NCBI RefSeq assembly: GCF_002906575.1
Contig: NZ_CP026309.1
Coordinates: 1,612,001-1,676,000 of the forward strand
Origin: Salinigranum rubrum
GTDB lineage: Archaea; Halobacteriota; Halobacteria; Halobacteriales; Haloferacaceae
Direction: 5' to 3'
DNA length: 64,000 bases
Part shown: positions 14,948 through 36,964 of the stretch, piece after piece
How positions within the stretch are numbered: position 1 is the first letter of the stretch
Layout of the letters: each line of letters begins with the position of its first letter
The notes under the pieces: model-generated
The model's database searches: none
Told to the model about the DNA's origin: nothing
What the model saw: only the letters and a program-made list of their open reading frames with translations
Program-made: the position numbers and the translations under genes

Positions 14948-17900
14948 GCGGCACTCACCTCGTCGAGGAGTATCTCGCCCCCGGGTCGCGGAACCGACGC
15001 CTCCTGCAGTACGTCCTCGTCGGTGCGCTCGGTCTCGGCGTCAACCAGGGCGTCCTCTTTCTCGCCACGGGCGTCGCCGGCCTCTCGTACGTCATCGGCG
15101 GCACCCTGAGCCGCGTCCTCAGCGTGCTGGTGAACTACGCGGTCAACGACGCGTGGACCTGGGGCGGGCGCGGCGACCCCGGCCCCCGGGAGTACGTCGT
15201 CCGCGGCTTCAAATACGTGCTCACGCGAATCGTCGGCATCGGCATCGGCCTCGGGGCGCTCGTCCTGTTCGTCGAACTCCTCAGCCTTCACTACCTCGTC
15301 GCGAACGTCCTCGCCGTCGGCGTGGGCATCGCGTGGGGGTTCGGGGCGAGCGAACGCTGGGTCTGGCGCTCCGACGACGCGGCCCCGACGCGCCTCGGTC
15401 GCCTCCTCGGACGGCTGCAGGCGCGGCTGGCCGGTCAGGACGACTCCGACCCCGCCGACCGTCGGACGAAGAGCGAGCGTCTCGGCGACCGTCGGGTCCG
15501 TGATTCGTCGACCGTCTCGATCGTACGACGGCGTCTCGGCCGGATCGGGGACCGGTTCGACCGCCTCGCCGAGCGGACTAGTCGCTCGGTCACTCCGGCG
15601 GTGCGACGGGGGCTCGACCGACTCGACCGCGTGGTCGTCCCGCCGGTGCGACGGGGGCTCGACCGACTCGGTGCCCTGCTCAACCGGTTCGCCGACCGCC
15701 TCGGCCGCGCTCGGACGGCGACTCCCGACCAGGGCGCACCGGCGGTCGACGGCGGACAGGTCCAGCGCCACGTCCCGACCCTCGACCGGTACGAACTCCG
15801 CGAGCGTCTCGTCGGCATGGACCGCGCCACGATCGCCGTGTTCGCGCTCGCCGGCGGCCTCTTCGTCGCCTTCACCGTGTACACCTCGCTCCTGTACCGG
15901 GGGTACCAGCTCACCGGGGCGGACTTCGGGTCGTACCTCCACATGTTCTGGACGACCGTCAACGGCCACGGCTTCCTCCAGCAGGGGAAGTTCCGCGCCG
16001 GCCACCCGAGCGGCGTCTACTGGGGGCACACTTCTCGCTCACGCTGCTCGCGTACCTCCCGTTCTTCGCCATCTGGCAGTCGCCGTACGCGCTCCTCGTG
16101 GCGAAGTCGTTCGTGCTCGCGGTGAGCGTCCCCCTCCTGTGGTTCGTCGCGCGCGAGCACATCGAGAGCAAACGGCTCGCCGGCCTGGTCGTCCTCTCGT
16201 ACGCGTTCAACCCGTTCCTCTGGTCGGCGTGGGCGTTCGACTTCCAGGAGCAGTCCCTGTTGCCGCTGTTGGTGTTCGTCGGCTACCTGCTGTACGCCCG
16301 CGGCCGCCGGGTCGGCTTCCTCGTCTTCCTCCTGCTCGCGATGTTCACGAACGAGTTCGTCGTCCCCGTCTCGCTCGGCTTCCTCCTCGGCCTCGCCGTG
16401 AGCAGCCTGCGGGACGGCGCGCTCGACCGCCGCGCCCTCCAGACGGTGGCCGCGGGAATCGGACTGGCCGTCTTCGCCCACGTCGTCGCGGGCTTCGTCA
16501 TGGGCCAGTTCAGCACGGTCAGCGGCGTCCCGGTCCGCGTCCTCGCCCCGCCGTTCCAGCCGCTGGTCGAGGGGTCGCGCGTCTCGCTCGGACAGCTGAT
16601 CCCCATCGCCATCATGAACCCCGACGTCGCGTTCCGGGCGCTCACGGTCGACATCCAGCGGAAGGTGATCTACCTCATCGCCTTCTCGTTGCCCCTGCTG
16701 TTCGTCGCGTACGCCGACGAGGTGACGCTCGGCTCGCTCGCACCCTTTGTCGGCTTCGCCTGGCTCGTCTCGAACCGCGGGTCGTACGTCACGTTCCGGG
16801 CGCACTACCCGCTCTACCTGCTTCCGTTCGTCTACATCGGCGCGGTCCGGGCGCTCGCACGGTGGGAACACCTCCTCCCCCGACCGTCGACGCTCTCCGC
16901 GGTCGAACTCCCCTGGACGACGGCCGCGAAACTGGCCGTCGCCATCCTCCTCGTCAACGCCGGGGCGTTCGTCGTCATCGGCGGCGGGAACATGAAGCCG
17001 GTCGACTCGAAGACCGACCACCACGAGGTCATCCAGGCGGGGCTGGCCGCCGTTCCACAAGACGCTTCGGTCGTCACCCAGAACGACCTCTACCCGCACA
17101 TGGCCCGCCGGCCCGACTCCTCGTTCATCGTGACGCCGTACGAGTTCGACCGGTACGAACGCGAAATCGGCCCGATCACGCCGGAGTACATCGTCTACGA
17201 CACCGAACTCCGCGGCTTCTGGGTCGACCAGGTGCTCGACTCGTTCGACTCGCGCGTCGGCACCGAGTACCAGCTCTACCGGTACGAGGACGGCTTCTGG
17301 GTGTTCAAGCGCGGCTACGAGGGGACCCCGACCGCCCTCACCACCGACCGAGAACTCACCTGGGTGACCGACGACCACACGTTCGAACCGGGCGTGTTCA
17401 CGACGGAGTCCACGACGGAAGTCAGCGACTTCCTCGTCAGCCAGAACGGTGACGCCGGCGAGCGCATCTGGTACGGTCCGTACGCCGTGTTCGCACCCGG
17501 CACCTACACGGCGACCTTCCAGGTGTACGCGACGGGCACCGGTGACCGTCCGGCCGCGACAGTCGACGTCGCCGTCGGCGAGAACCACCGCGTCGTCGCC
17601 ACCGAGCAGGTCGCCTCCGAACCCGGCGTCCAGGAGGTCACCGTCGCGTTCACGCTCGACCGCCCGACCAGCAAGGTCGAGTTCCGCGGCGCGCACGCCG
17701 CCCCCGGCGGAACGGTCGCCTTCGGCGGCGTCACCGTCGAGAGACAGGACGCTGCGGCCTCGTCGGACGCCGATGCGGCCTCGTCGGACACCGACGCGAC
17801 CCTGACGGACGGCGATTCGACCGCGGCGGCCTCGACCAGCGCGAGCGTCGCCGCCGACCACGGCGCCGTCGCCGTCGAGAACGGCGCTGTCGCCGCTGAC

Positions 17901-18014
17901 CATGGCGCCGTCGCCGCCGCAGTCGACCAGACGCCGCTCGACCGACAGACGCAGACGCACAGCCCCCGACTGACCACCGACTCACTCACCACTGCAACGG
18001 AGCCACTCCGATGA
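14944..18014 (+). pseudogene. GtrA-DUF2079 fusion membrane protein, frameshifted at 16022-16026
   Basis: A roughly 1020-residue reading frame broken by one missing base. Residues 20-140 are a four-helix GtrA domain (polyprenol-linked sugar flipping). A charged linker contains a 15-residue repeat (VRRGLDRLDRVVVPP). DUF2079 begins near residue 290 with TGADFGSYLHMFWTTVNG, and its multi-helix part resembles the separate DUF2079 protein at 19442. At a G5 run (16022-16026) the frame shifts: one extra G would give YWGAHFSLTLLAYLPFF, matching YWGGHFTLTLLAFLPLF of the paralogue. The second part continues to 18014 with a C-terminal beta domain and an Asp/Ala-rich tail. Both halves look conserved, so either a sequencing error or a recent mutation. 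It overlaps both neighbours by 4 nt. Confidence 0.8.
15599..15670 (+). repeat. 45-nt-period direct repeat in the linker
   Basis: Two identical 27-nt copies lie at 15599-15625 and 15644-15670, 45 nt apart, beginning CGGTGCGACGGGGGCTCGAC. They encode VRRGLDRL twice in the GtrA-DUF2079 linker. Confidence 0.7.
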
Positions 18015-30109: not shown

Positions 30110-30286
30110 GGGGTCGTGGCCAAGCCCGGCATGGCGACTGACTCCAGAGGCTACCGCCCGGTGACGACACTCCAGACTGATATACCGAGCGACCGACTGA
30201 TCATCGGTCGTGTTGACGACCCTCTGGAGAACCGAGGCGCGACCGGAGATATCAGTCGATCGGGGGTTCAAATCCCTCCGACCCCA
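30110..30286 (+). tRNA. tRNA-Trp (CCA anticodon) with a 103-nt intron
   Basis: The acceptor stem GGGGTCG (30110-30116) pairs with CGACCCC (30279-30285), discriminator A at 30286. The anticodon stem ACTGA (30137-30141) pairs with TCAGT (30252-30256), the anticodon CCA is at 30144-30146, and the T arm contains GGGTTCAAATCCC. Helix CUCC (30142-30145)/GGAG (30245-30248) flanked by 3-nt bulges AGA and ATA forms the archaeal bulge-helix-bulge splice site, placing the intron after position 37. CCA is not encoded. The 3' end is also an integration site (see mobile element). A T-rich stretch at 30293-30297 may end transcription. Confidence 0.95.
30148..30250 (+). ncRNA. tRNA-Trp intron with box C/D-like elements
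   Basis: The 103-nt intron carries GTGACGA (box C-like), CTGA motifs and TGATCATC-type C'/D' elements, with a segment resembling the anticodon region (ACTCCAGA). In Haloferax the equivalent intron guides 2'-O-methylation of C34 and U39 of the same tRNA; this one very likely does too, by homology. Confidence 0.75.
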
Positions 30287-30288
30287 CT
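30271..30288 (+). repeat. att copy 1, inside the tRNA-Trp 3' end
   Basis: AATCCCTCCGACCCCACT occupies the T-arm/acceptor 3' side and two bases beyond. Identical 18-nt copies occur at 32258 and 32397, bracketing the integrase gene. Confidence 0.75.
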
Positions 30289-30477
30289 ATCACTTTTCAC
30301 GCTCCCTCAGGACCCCGAATCGCAATACTGCTCTTGATTCAGGGGCTTCCTCCACTTGATTCGACAACACCCGATGAGGGGTCGGCCCCGGAGCCGTGCA
30401 GGGGATACCAGCAGTGTGGGAGTTGAACCCCGAGAGTGATATATCGCTCCCTGAAATCAAGCAGACAATCAACCCGC

Positions 30478-31053
30478 TCAGTCGGTGTCCTCTTTATCAT
30501 GACGCCCCTCAAACACCATCTCCTCAGACGTGTGGTCAACGAAAACGTGGTCTGGAGTCGGTCCCGTGTACGAGATTGTAACCGTGTATCTCAGCAGTGT
30601 TTCCTCAAGTGTGCATGGTCGCTCCAGCGTTGGGGGATGATAATTGTCGAAAACGACCACTGACAAGCCATCAGATTGCGGATTGAAATACACCTGCTCA
30701 AGTTCAGTTGAACGACAAGACCGCCCACCACTTGGGAATTCCCCCTGAATTCGGATTGTATCGTCGTCGGTGAAGTTGACAGACGCGGAATGATTGAGCG
30801 TCGGTGGAAGCGGACCGTCAGCCCCACCGATAGATACAGAGAAATTCACGCTAGTAACATTGAATACGGATTGATTGGCCGTATCCTGCCGTGAGTTCGT
30901 TTCAGTTGAACTGGCTCCTCCGGGTGTGTTCTGTTCACTTATTGGAGTCTCAGATGAGACTAACTGCTCCCGTGTTGGGGGTTCGTTCGGACTCATTCCG
31001 CAACCAGCGACCAATGTAAGGACGACACAGAAGACTAACAACCGTTTAGTCAT
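30478..31053 (-). CDS. lipoprotein of unknown function on the element
   Basis: A 191-residue exported lipoprotein: basic MTKR, hydrophobic LLVFCVVLTLVAGC with the lipobox cysteine at about residue 18, and a Ser/Thr/Asn-rich linker (about 25-65). The rest is a beta-rich domain with a possible disulphide (SCRSTE and RPCTLEE). It is AT-rich compared with its genomic neighbours, fitting transfer with the integrase. TATA-like CTTTATTCG lies about 27 nt upstream of ATG 31053. No family is recognised. Confidence 0.7.
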   Translation of the reverse strand: MTKRLLVFCVVLTLVAGCGMSPNEPPTREQLVSSETPISEQNTPGGASSTETNSRQDTANQSVFNVTSVNFSVSIGGADGPLPPTLNHSASVNFTDDDTIRIQGEFPSGGRSCRSTELEQVYFNPQSDGLSVVVFDNYHPPTLERPCTLEETLLRYTVTISYTGPTPDHVFVDHTSEEMVFEGRHDKEDTD

Positions 31054-31142
31054 GTAGATGTCAAATCACACTAACGAATAAAGTCTTCCGACGAGTTGGG
31101 TATCCTAATAAAGAAGGCTAAGTTCTATATAAATATAGAACC

Positions 31143-32159
31143 TTACAGCAGGTCGAAGAACCTGTCTCGTCGCTTCCGCTTCTCCTCCTCTTTTGCCGCG
31201 TCGTAGTGCGCGTCCAGAACGTCTACGCCGACGTTCGCTCGTTCCGCGAGGTGTTCCTTTGGATAGTTCTGATTCAGCGCGTAGGTGATGGCCGCTCGGC
31301 GGAGCGGGTGTGGACTCACGGACGATGGACAGCCGGACGCTTCCCGCTTCTTTACGGCCCACTCGCACGTCGCCTGTTCTTTGTCGTGCGGACACTCACC
31401 AGCGTAGATACACGGACGAGTGACCGCGTAGAGGTTCTTCCGGTACGTGTTCGCCGTGACTCGCTGTTGGTAGGTGGTGAATAGCGGTCGTCGGTCGTCG
31501 GCGTCTTCCAGTATATCTACGCGCTTGTGGCCGATGTAGTCGTTCAGTACCGATTGCGTCTCGTCGTCAATTCGGACCTGACGTTGACCGTCGAGTTTGT
31601 TCTTGAGCGGAGTCCCGGTATCCGGTCGGTGTACCACGTTGATGAGTCCCTGCTCTCGGTCGTAATCTTCGAGGTCGAGCGCGAGAACGGTCCCGATTCG
31701 GAATCCGGTGTGCCAGATGAGTTGCGTGATGGCGTGTAGCCGAGTCGCGTACTCGAACTTGCGAAGGAAGTCGAGAACCGCTTTCATCTCGTCCTCCTCG
31801 ATTACAGTGTCGGATACCATCTTCGGGTGGTTCTTTGGCGGCACGTCGATTTTGTCCGCCAGCCCCCCCTCGACTATTCCGCCCTGCTCGCACCACCGGA
31901 TGAACACCCGAAGGGCGCTCAGATTGTTCCGAAGCGTGGCGTACGCGATTTCCTCGGACTTACGCTCCAACTTGAACTGCTTGATGTGGTAGGGCGTGAT
32001 TTGCTCCGTATACTGGACGCCTTCATTCTCGCAGAACTCGATGAACTGCTTAAGCGGGTAGCGGTAGTTCCGCCACGTCGATTCTGACACCATCCCTTTT
32101 CGGTCAGTGAGGAAGTCTTCGACCGCCCGTTCGACACTCAGCTTTGGTATATCGGACAT
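31143..32159 (-). CDS. tyrosine recombinase/integrase
   Basis: A 338-residue phage-type integrase. An N-terminal SAM-like core-binding domain (residues 5-95: SVERAVEDFLTDRKGMVSESTWRNYRYPLKQFIEFC) precedes the catalytic domain. Catalytic residues are visible: Arg154 in HTGFRIGTVLALDLEDYD, His284 and Arg287 in HPLRRAAITY, and nucleophile Tyr319 in DAHYDAA. An extra Cys-rich insert (ECPHDKEQATCEW, about 255-268) could bind zinc and is often found in haloarchaeal integrases. It is presumably the enzyme that used the tRNA-Trp 3' end as target. Confidence 0.9.
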   Translation of the reverse strand: MSDIPKLSVERAVEDFLTDRKGMVSESTWRNYRYPLKQFIEFCENEGVQYTEQITPYHIKQFKLERKSEEIAYATLRNNLSALRVFIRWCEQGGIVEGGLADKIDVPPKNHPKMVSDTVIEEDEMKAVLDFLRKFEYATRLHAITQLIWHTGFRIGTVLALDLEDYDREQGLINVVHRPDTGTPLKNKLDGQRQVRIDDETQSVLNDYIGHKRVDILEDADDRRPLFTTYQQRVTANTYRKNLYAVTRPCIYAGECPHDKEQATCEWAVKKREASGCPSSVSPHPLRRAAITYALNQNYPKEHLAERANVGVDVLDAHYDAAKEEEKRKRRDRFFDLL

Positions 32160-32247
32160 GACTTTGGTCTGTTGTTGAGTATCACAGACGGACGGGTCCG
32201 GAGGCCGTGCAGTAGTTCGGTTTGCGGTCCGCGAGCGGAGCGAGCGG

Positions 32248-32275
32248 CGGGGGTGATAATCCCTCCGACCCCACT
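32248..32275 (+). repeat. att copy 2
   Basis: This 28-nt stretch equals the tRNA-Trp 3' sequence from 30261 except for three adjacent bases in the T loop (TCA replaced by GAT); its last 18 nt are identical to the copy in the tRNA. Confidence 0.75.
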
Positions 32276-32350
32276 TCTCTCGGAACTCACCTCCGAGCGA
32301 GCGCTCCGTCGCTCGCGGACCGCGTGAGTTCCATGTGACGTTGACGAGGA

Positions 32351-32362
32351 GGATTTGAACCC
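32351..32362 (-). repeat. inverted T-arm-like sequence
   Basis: GGATTTGAACCC is the exact reverse complement of the tRNA-Trp T-arm segment GGGTTCAAATCC (30264-30275). The adjoining bases differ, so it could be the 3' end of another tRNA picked up by an element. Confidence 0.45.
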
Positions 32363-32396
32363 AGAGGACGAGCGAAGCGAGGTCCTCGTGGTTCAG

Positions 32397-32414
32397 AATC
32401 CCTCCGACCCCACT
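32397..32414 (+). repeat. att copy 3
   Basis: A third exact copy of AATCCCTCCGACCCCACT, preceded by GGTTCA as in the tRNA. It marks a further, probably older, integration end. Confidence 0.75.
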
Positions 32415-35772: not shown

Positions 35773-36060
35773 TCACCGACTCGCCGTCGTCCCCCACCCG
35801 CCGCCGACCCGTGACCGGACGGCCGTGATGCCGACGAGGAGCGCGAGCCACGTGACGAGCCAGACGAACGCCCAGACGAACACGATAGCCGTCGTCGACA
35901 GCAGCGGAAGGACGCTCACGACGGCGACCACGACCGAGTAGCCGACGGCGAGCGCGACGACGGCCACCGCCAGGCTCACCACCCCACAGGTCGCCTGTCC
36001 GAACCGTCCCACCGGCGTCCACCCCTCGACCGGACAGCGTCTCTGTTTCCCCCAGTTCAT
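35773..36060 (-). CDS. small membrane protein, unknown
   Basis: A 95-residue protein from ATG 36060 (an in-frame ATG at 36084 would add eight residues). The N-terminal WGKQRRCPVEGWTPVGRFG is followed by two hydrophobic helices (about 26-52 and 56-83). No family recognised. It diverges from the HAD hydrolase gene. Confidence 0.55.
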   Translation of the reverse strand: MNWGKQRRCPVEGWTPVGRFGQATCGVVSLAVAVVALAVGYSVVVAVVSVLPLLSTTAIVFVWAFVWLVTWLALLVGITAVRSRVGGGWGTTASR

Positions 36061-36178
36061 GAGCAATGGTAACACGCCACTCAACTTAACGATTCCTCAC
36101 GTCGCGGGGCGAACCATCCAGAAGCGATTCGGGTGGAGAGCCGACAGCCTGAACTCCCCTGCCTCCTCCGGTGCAGAT

Positions 36179-36964
36179 ATGCTCAACGGGGTCATCCTCG
36201 ACGTCGACGGCACCGTCGTCCGCGGCGACGAGGCGTTGCCGGGCGCGCGCGCAGGCCTGGACCTCATCGCCGACAGCGGTCTGCGCCGCCTGTTCGTCTC
36301 GAACAACCCGACGAAACCAGCAGTCGCCTACGAGGCGCGCTTCGCCCGCGCGGGCTTCGACGTCTCCTCCGAGGAGATAGTCACCGCCGCGACCGTCACC
36401 TCCTCGTACCTCGACCAGCACTACCCCGAAGAGGCCCACTTCGTCGTCGGCGAAGCGGGCCTCCGGACGCTCCTGTCGGAGGCGGGTCTCTCGCTCACCG
36501 CCGACCCCGCGGAGGCGACGGTCCTCGTCGCGTCCATCGACCGCGCGTTCGACTACGACACGCTCTGTACGGCGATGCGCGTCCTCGCCGAGGAGTCGGT
36601 GGCGTTCGTCGGCACCGACCCCGACATGGTCATCCCGACCGCCGCGGGCGACATCCCCGGGTCGGGCGCGGTCATCCACGCCATCGCGGGCGTCGTCGGC
36701 CGCGACCCCGACATCGTCCTCGGCAAGCCCTCCGAACCCGCTCGCGACCTCGTCGTCTCGACGCTCGGCCTCGACCCTCGCGAGTGTCTGGTCGTCGGCG
36801 ACCGCCTCGACACCGACATCGCCTTCGGTGTCGCGGCGGGGATGACGACCGCGCTCGTCCGAACCGGCGTGACCGACGACGCCGACCTCGCCGCCTCCGA
36901 CATCGAACCCGACTACGTCCTCGACTCACTCGCCGACCTCTACGAAGTCGACGGACTGGGCTGA
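36179..36964 (+). CDS. HAD-IIA family sugar phosphatase
   Basis: A 261-residue NagD-like phosphatase from ATG 36179. Motif I is ILDVDGTVVRG with the nucleophile Asp near residue 7, motif II FVSNNPTKP, the Lys of motif III in IVLGKPSEPA, and motif IV VVGDRLDTDIAFGVAAGM. The C2 cap lies between motifs II and III. Substrates in this family include 4-nitrophenyl phosphate, glycerol phosphate and AMP. The longer in-frame start would add 40 residues unlike the family. Confidence 0.88.
   Translation: MLNGVILDVDGTVVRGDEALPGARAGLDLIADSGLRRLFVSNNPTKPAVAYEARFARAGFDVSSEEIVTAATVTSSYLDQHYPEEAHFVVGEAGLRTLLSEAGLSLTADPAEATVLVASIDRAFDYDTLCTAMRVLAEESVAFVGTDPDMVIPTAAGDIPGSGAVIHAIAGVVGRDPDIVLGKPSEPARDLVVSTLGLDPRECLVVGDRLDTDIAFGVAAGMTTALVRTGVTDDADLAASDIEPDYVLDSLADLYEVDGLG

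Follow-up and report, generated by a model that had tools for sequence, protein, structure and literature searches.

A tRNA-Trp gene of Salinigranum rubrum shared by an integrase-bearing element and a two-hairpin unit, one of a family of putative integration cassettes at haloarchaeal tRNA genes

Why does the 3′ end of a single transfer RNA (tRNA) gene occur three times in close succession in a haloarchaeal genome? The question is raised by the tRNA-Trp gene of Salinigranum rubrum, which lies in a 64,000-nucleotide stretch of contig NZ_CP026309.1 (positions 1,612,001–1,676,000; hereafter the window, meaning that whole stretch). An earlier note, made from the letters alone, had described three direct copies of a tRNA-derived core bracketing an integrase gene and had taken them as a sign of stacked or successive insertions. 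We find that two kinds of insertion appear to share this tRNA gene, an integrase-bearing element between the first and second copies and a gene-less unit of two hairpins that ends in the third copy. Units of the same build form a family at many tRNA genes, and on balance we favor the view that they are non-autonomous integration cassettes.

The core, AATCCCTCCGACCCCACT, is present in three exact 18-bp copies (Table 1), just as had been described. When up to three mismatches are allowed, the window holds four matches, a number that none of 100 shuffles reached (mean, 0.05). The fourth match, at 36725 with three mismatches, lies inside a coding open reading frame (ORF) at 36059–36964, and we take it as chance. 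Across the whole S. rubrum genome, the core with up to two mismatches is found at these three sites only, and the reversed core pattern has no match. From the T-loop the core extends two bases past the tRNA, whose last base is at 30286, and these two final bases are CT; the earlier placement of the core wholly within the 3′ exon therefore does not hold. The second copy is indeed preceded by a T-arm-like flank with three changed bases (CGGGGGTgatAATCC versus CGGGGGTtcaAATCC). Of the supposed bracketing of the integrase gene, what stands is that it lies between copies 1 and 2; copies 2 and 3 are separated by 121 bp with no callable gene.

What, then, is copy 3? The same repeats in strains with an empty site had been named as the observation that would speak against insertion, and for copy 3 this is what we found in relatives. 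All three congeners (G001, G002, and G003) have a second tail copy 140–144 bp past tRNA-Trp, a gap too short for an integrase gene. Window positions 32248–32413 align with the segment adjacent to tRNA-Trp in G003 (78.6%), G001 (75.7%), G002 (77.0%), G028 (82.5%), and G010 (80.2%), and therefore the state before the element arrived was most likely the tRNA and then the unit. With a rule of at most three mismatches in 18, the Trp unit without an intervening element is found in 7 of 20 relatives, and an eighth, G010, whose tail copy is one base shorter, was recognized by eye. Two tail steps of 129 bp follow tRNA-Trp in G028 and one step follows it in each of G021, G032, and G012, while in G030 about 5.6 kb lies between tRNA-Trp and such a unit. 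This comparison shows that copy 3 ends a 139-bp gene-less unit with two hairpins, H1 and H2, which adjoins the tRNA in relatives, members of some other genera among them, and here is separated from it by the element. We therefore reject copy 3 as the end of a second stacked integrase element, since relatives carry the repeat without the element. The idea of successive insertions survives in another form, and because the units behave as insertions of their own, the tRNA-Trp locus has probably seen two insertion events of different kinds.

The segment between copies 1 and 2 is shown by the same kind of comparison to be one element in tRNA-Trp, with its predicted left attachment (att) site, attL, at 30271 and its right site, attR, at 32258, and the use of this tRNA 3′ end as an integration site, which had been proposed, is borne out by five relatives without the element. 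It has the features of a tRNA-integrated tyrosine-recombinase element, namely tail repeats at both borders, an integrase of its own, and a site that is free in relatives. When its ends are joined as in the circular form, attP, a 6-bp dyad, GTGATA/TATCAC, flanks the core. The tRNA gene has the intron that had been noted, 103 nt long, and ARAGORN fails to detect the gene without its intron mode. Such targeting is already known, and the part of the report on Thaumarchaeota that was covered places 10 of 39 tRNA integrations in intron-bearing tRNA genes (PMC6563490).

Table 1. Positions of the tRNA-Trp gene, the core copies, the element, and the unit in the window
Feature	Position	Strand	Basis
tRNA-Trp(CCA), target; intron 30148–30250	30110–30286	+	Rfam tRNA, 45.8 bits; ARAGORN intron mode
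Copy 1, predicted attL core, in the tRNA except for its last two bases	30271–30288	+	exact match
Integrated element, 1,987 bp core to core	30289–32275		missing between tRNA and unit in five relatives
191-aa ORF	30478–31053	−	ORF list; no Pfam or NCBIfam match
338-aa tyrosine recombinase, SNJ2-like	31143–32159	−	Pfam Phage_integrase and SAM-like N-terminal domains
Copy 2, predicted attR core, after T-arm-like flank with three altered bases	32258–32275	+	exact match
Two-hairpin tRNA-tail unit, about 2 kb from the tRNA because of the element	32274–32412	+	75.7–82.5% to tRNA-adjacent segments of five genomes
Hairpin H1 of the unit	32282–32332	+	fold
Hairpin H2: inverted T-arm, tip, T-arm	32346–32405	+	fold, alignment
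Copy 3, tail copy closing the two-hairpin unit	32397–32414	+	exact match

The Trp unit is not alone. For 18 of the 47 tRNAs in the S. rubrum genome (46 from Rfam plus tRNA-Trp), the tRNA's own tail recurs within 800 bp, and for none does the reversed tail occur; a few of the 18 copies are weak, with two mismatches in 15 or no hairpin, and the Trp copies lie beyond 800 bp. In three congeneric genomes, 48 of 138 tRNAs have an own-tail copy within 600 bp (20/46 in G000, 8/45 in G003, and 20/47 in G001), as compared with 10 of 5,422 non-cognate tails, 0 of 138 reverse complements, and no reversed tail in any of these genomes. This 600-bp test is anchored differently from the 800-bp count, omits WIN17 (an ARAGORN tRNA-Asp outside the Rfam list), and scores tRNA-Trp of G000 and tRNA-Ala(cgc) of G000 and G001 as unit-free even though their units are displaced. 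The tRNA-Asp that ARAGORN calls on the minus strand of the window at 17862–17937 is absent from the Rfam tRNA list of the S. rubrum genome and is probably false. In G002, 8 of 17 chosen tRNAs have an own-tail copy. Units also occur in arrays, with three after tRNA-Gly(gcc) in G000 and, in another genome (L416), four tail copies 75 bp apart after a tRNA-Arg.

A search for the H2 palindrome that was blind to tRNAs found it in 31 of 99 Halobacteriales genomes, with none for the backward control. Each of the 30 retained loci has a tRNA 3′ end no more than 276 bp ahead of it, and at 25 of them the tail agrees with that tRNA at 14 or more of its last 16 bases. A second H2 pattern was found in 14 of 24 Halobacteriales genomes and in 0 of 124 other genomes of the phylum. 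Scanning of named contigs gave at least 120 stretches; among the 120 listed, a tRNA lies immediately upstream of 89, and in 65 of those cases at least 14 of 16 tail bases agree. Eighty stretches were listed by name, and the 60 with an upstream tRNA include 55 that are haloarchaeal by record title. The remaining 20 are 14 bacterial and 6 haloarchaeal stretches, the latter comprising two that follow tRNAs overlooked by ARAGORN, two located at the edge of a contig, and two unexplained. When tRNAs were sampled directly, taking the best-scoring ones rather than random ones, 12 of 32 in Halobacteriales had a tail copy as compared with 1 of 31 from a different family within the phylum, and that single positive is a second tRNA-Gly gene 134 bp on, that is, a tandem tRNA. 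From these comparisons of genomes, we conclude that the units are a family at many different Halobacteriales tRNA genes, that most end in what matches the tail of their own tRNA, and that they are present or absent by species.

Several palindromes deserve separate mention. Two haloarchaeal H2 palindromes (L223 1025 and L245 562) had no cognate tRNA found just upstream. Two DPANN records outside Halobacteriales (L190 and L241; Woesearchaeota and Nanoarchaeia) have a tRNA, an H2-like palindrome, and a cognate tail. One metagenome-assembled Armatimonadetes genome (L178, L184, L217, L226, L239, and L248) has, repeatedly at contig ends and with no nearby tRNA, a 37-bp palindrome core of the same pattern, which is probably an unrelated repeat.

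The units have a common layout. Behind the tRNA comes a pyrimidine-rich start (often CTTCT), then H1, a spacer, and H2, whose 5′ arm is an inverted T-arm and whose 3′ arm is a T-arm continuing into the acceptor tail; pairing involves the T-arm part and leaves the acceptor part mostly single-stranded. This two-hairpin build and a similar length of 100–160 bp recur at many tRNAs, and the H1 sequences aligned poorly. Two tests, both of which stand, compared the H2 5′ arm with the tail of its own tRNA, and in both the orthologous and tandem units are not independent. By heavy-gap alignment there is little or no signal, with the own tail strictly best for 4 of 64 units, in the top 10% for 12, and above 99% of shuffles for 2. 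By duplex energy, the own tail is best for 12 of 62, in the top 10% for 24, and in the top half for 50, so that in terms of pairing energy the 5′ arm is in part matched to the tail of its own tRNA. We treat a motif at the hairpin tip as weak evidence: its 22 matches in four congeners comprise 12 at tRNA genes, 2 at displaced Ala units, and 8 elsewhere, and the backward pattern gives 6.

Closely related genomes differ in their units. At tRNA-Gly(gcc) there are three units in G000, two each in G001 and G002, and none in G003; at tRNA-Leu(tag) there is one in G000, two in G001, and none in G002 or G003. At tRNA-Leu(cag), a tail copy is found 105 bp on in G001 and G002 and none is found in G000 or G003. 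Over 250 bp, the empty sites of G000 and G003 align with the flank that follows the unit in G001 at scores of 184 and 198, with no shuffle above 30, and the alignment begins almost at the first base after the tRNA. As far as alignment can tell, this shows that at least one unit, that of tRNA-Leu(cag), is an exact insertion at a tRNA 3′ end.

Displacement is also seen at a second tRNA gene. The unit of tRNA-Ala(cgc) is directly behind the tRNA in G003. The tRNA is followed by other DNA in G000 and G001, where an att-like tail and then a displaced unit lie beside an integrase gene about 17 kb and 26 kb away, respectively (lengths taken from coordinates). The displaced units score 82.5 and 77.5 against the G003 unit, whereas the DNA immediately behind the tRNA scores 14 and 16.5. 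By this alignment, the tRNA-Ala(cgc) locus independently repeats the layout in the window.

The interiors of units at different tRNAs are related, with a mean normalized score of 0.22 as compared with 0.106 for shuffled interiors (99th percentile, 0.178), and the nearest relative is at another tRNA for 41 of 62 units. Simple GAGCGAAGCGAG-like repeats raise this likeness, and the single-base shuffle leaves that effect in. Tandem units of one tRNA average 0.265, hardly above units elsewhere, with near-identical tandem units (0.98) at tRNA-Gly(tcc) of G001. These values bear on local duplication, in which template switching or unequal exchange at the T-arm would make tail copies and inverted arms in place: the T-arm is itself palindromic and the tRNA-Gly(tcc) tandem is what this process would leave, but tandem units of one tRNA are on average scarcely more alike than units elsewhere, and H1 and the tips of H2 are not tRNA sequence yet are common to different tRNAs and genomes, so that we regard it as very improbable.

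The tail repeats, the exact empty site, and the stacking fit integrase-like recombination between tails, from which we infer the mover. We propose that the units are integration cassettes of a minimal, non-autonomous kind. An integrase recognizing a tRNA tail would recombine tail with tail, so that units could be added, stacked, and lost without disrupting the tRNA. The part that binds the recombinase or folds would be H2, in which the T-arm is present in both orientations. The cognate tail and part of the opposite arm could come from copying of the target tail at insertion or from later gene conversion by the adjacent tRNA.

Several results weigh against this proposal. In 47 pairs of empty and occupied sites, the far flank scores above all shuffles in 23 and above the near flank in 32, and therefore the clean tRNA-Leu(cag) case is not the rule and its exactness should not be generalized; in 15 of the pairs the far flank is no better than the near flank, and 4 of the 47 apparent empty sites have a displaced unit. 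Units at the same tRNA are more alike across genomes (0.352) than are units at different tRNAs (0.22). In-place inheritance would also account for this difference, and by these scores it makes up part of the pattern of likeness. Plain att recombination would not yield cognate tails after spread between tRNAs. The T-arm palindrome was not found in the viral att regions of SNJ2, Halfgib1, and Humcor2 (3.1 kb read in each), and the unit as a copy of a viral attP is unsupported by these regions. On plasmids, the Trp unit has no match at E = 0.01, and G012 and G021 have Trp units with no detectable relative of the window integrase. Unit movement and cognate-tail acquisition are unproven proposals, and no circle or movement has been observed.

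A parallel for a T-arm palindrome near an integrase comes from prophages. At all three of the prophage loci examined, which are from IMG/VR (L163 2326–2381, L166 13877–13932, and L161 1104–1162), a T-arm palindrome and tRNA tail lie 57–64 bp before the start of a tyrosine integrase. These loci resemble Bifidobacterium prophages, and the same kind of palindrome occurs in named Bifidobacterium records (L181 and L182). Among nine IMG/VR stretches with the H2 pattern, seven share the palindrome of those records, L160 and L164 look unrelated, and no halovirus was recognized. We take these loci as an analogy only.

Two other explanations for the units have to be weighed. Each unit may be a scar, the remnant of a full integrated element minus its interior, in which case arrays would be stacked att remnants; this is the strongest form of the reading in the earlier note. 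Integration leaves tail repeats, units do stack, and a decayed element adjoins a unit in G003, but random deletions would not end at one same place, whereas the same build and similar length recur at many tRNAs with related interiors, and the viral att regions were read without an H2; we consider this origin unlikely. A functional trailer, in which H1 and H2 act within the tRNA transcript as a processing signal, a terminator, or a small RNA and are maintained, as the tRNA tail is, by selection or gene conversion, would account for the fixed position behind tRNA genes, the stable folds, and the partial fit of the 5′ arm to its own tail (24/62 in the top tenth by pairing energy). Against it, 90 of 138 tRNAs have no unit within 600 bp, the number of units at the same tRNA varies between congeners, and units are displaced by kilobases at Trp and Ala(cgc), all of which makes a trailer decidedly unlikely. 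We retain the integration cassette as our reading of the units.

The integrase-bearing element is more familiar. Two ORFs in it are taken as genes, both on the minus strand. The 191-aa ORF, which has no match in Pfam or NCBIfam, is near-orphan, found in 5 of 60 genomes including S. rubrum with the other four matches weak (E = 1.6e-5 to 5.3e-4), and its N terminus is lipoprotein-like by what we take to be a lipobox. The recombinase ORF is intact and has an N-terminal SAM-like domain and a catalytic domain. It is 34–37% identical to 12 haloarchaeal virus records, 35.7% identical to the SNJ2 integrase over 94%, and 29% identical to 6 Helicobacter phage records across half its length; its full-length relatives in the 60 genomes searched reach up to 41% identity. 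The SNJ2-type family, by the rule in the covered part of a review, has Phage_int_SAM and Phage_integrase domains, occurs in Halobacteria, and shares an identity of 30% or more across 60% of the protein (PMC8371274), and the window integrase has these domains and this identity, as judged from one compared pair and not a full clustering. With an integron-integrase model it scores 23.2 bits, below the cut-off of 265. Like SNJ2-type integrases and pleolipoviruses, for which att and provirus data are available, the element combines this integrase family with a tRNA 3′-end target, a short core, and an integrase beside the distal att, to the extent that the covered text of two sources describes them (PMC8371274; PMC7911831). 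It differs from SNJ2, in whose record two recombination accessory genes adjoin the integrase, in being only 2 kb long, and because no SNJ2-like accessory gene is visible in it, it may be a stripped relative of SNJ2. In Humcor2 and Halfgib1 the end of the integrase faces the distal att, whereas here its start does. Its kind is already known, and the element is a new example of it. G003 carries a decayed relative (L064 1143–2147) with a 79% identical integrase fragment containing one stop and a left end at 70%; it sits beyond the unit, an order opposite to that in the window.

The units, in turn, resemble several known systems in part. The MITEs, PATEs, and SMRs of Haloquadratum are likewise short, non-coding, palindrome-bearing haloarchaeal repeats, but in the text covered they are described by terminal repeats or IS605-like palindromes with no tie to tRNA tails (PMC3119063). 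The repeats seen at the units are direct copies of tRNA tails, and no search was made for transposon ends. A palindrome also stands behind about half of the tRNA genes of Methanopyrus kandleri; it differs in being CGTTA(N)9TAACG about 10 bp from the tRNA with no tail copy, and its authors, in the portion covered, did not find it in other genomes (PMC5217627). The 3′ ends of tRNAs are dealt with as targets in a review on the tyrosine recombinases of archaea, and such units are undescribed in the text of it that was covered (PMC8371274). We found no description of two-hairpin tRNA-tail units in the literature searched, a scope that excludes subscription papers and preprints.

In arrangement, there is also a likeness to cis-mobilizable elements (CIMEs) and other att-flanked passengers, DNA that lacks a recombinase of its own and stacks at one site. 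The units are likewise bordered by att-like tail repeats and have no recombinase gene, but they differ in being 100–160 bp, gene-less, partly palindromic, and of the same build at many tRNAs, and no parent element carrying H1 and H2 was found. As far as can be told, the unit family is an undescribed variant of att-flanked mobile DNA. In integron arrays, cassettes stack at a fixed head site and have palindromic recombination sites, as the units do, but the units have no integron integrase or cassette genes and their head is a tRNA gene. A broader idea, which we think quite unlikely as it stands, is that Halobacteriales and at least two DPANN archaea share a tRNA-anchored system of gene-less cassettes, in which the tRNA would be the head of an array, akin to attI of integron arrays, with units added and removed behind it, recognized by a folded or inverted T-arm build instead of a fixed sequence, and taking on the tail of the tRNA they join.

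Mobile DNA of archaea favors the 3′ ends of tRNA genes as docking sites, and island borders are recognized by partial tRNA copies. Island-free tail copies behind about a third of the sampled tRNA genes of one order would mislead island-finding, and the units would give integrases alternative attachment sites. The question posed by the tRNA-Trp locus becomes what delivers a gene-less segment of 100–160 bp to a tRNA gene and equips it with the tail of that same tRNA, and congeners with and without units make this question testable.

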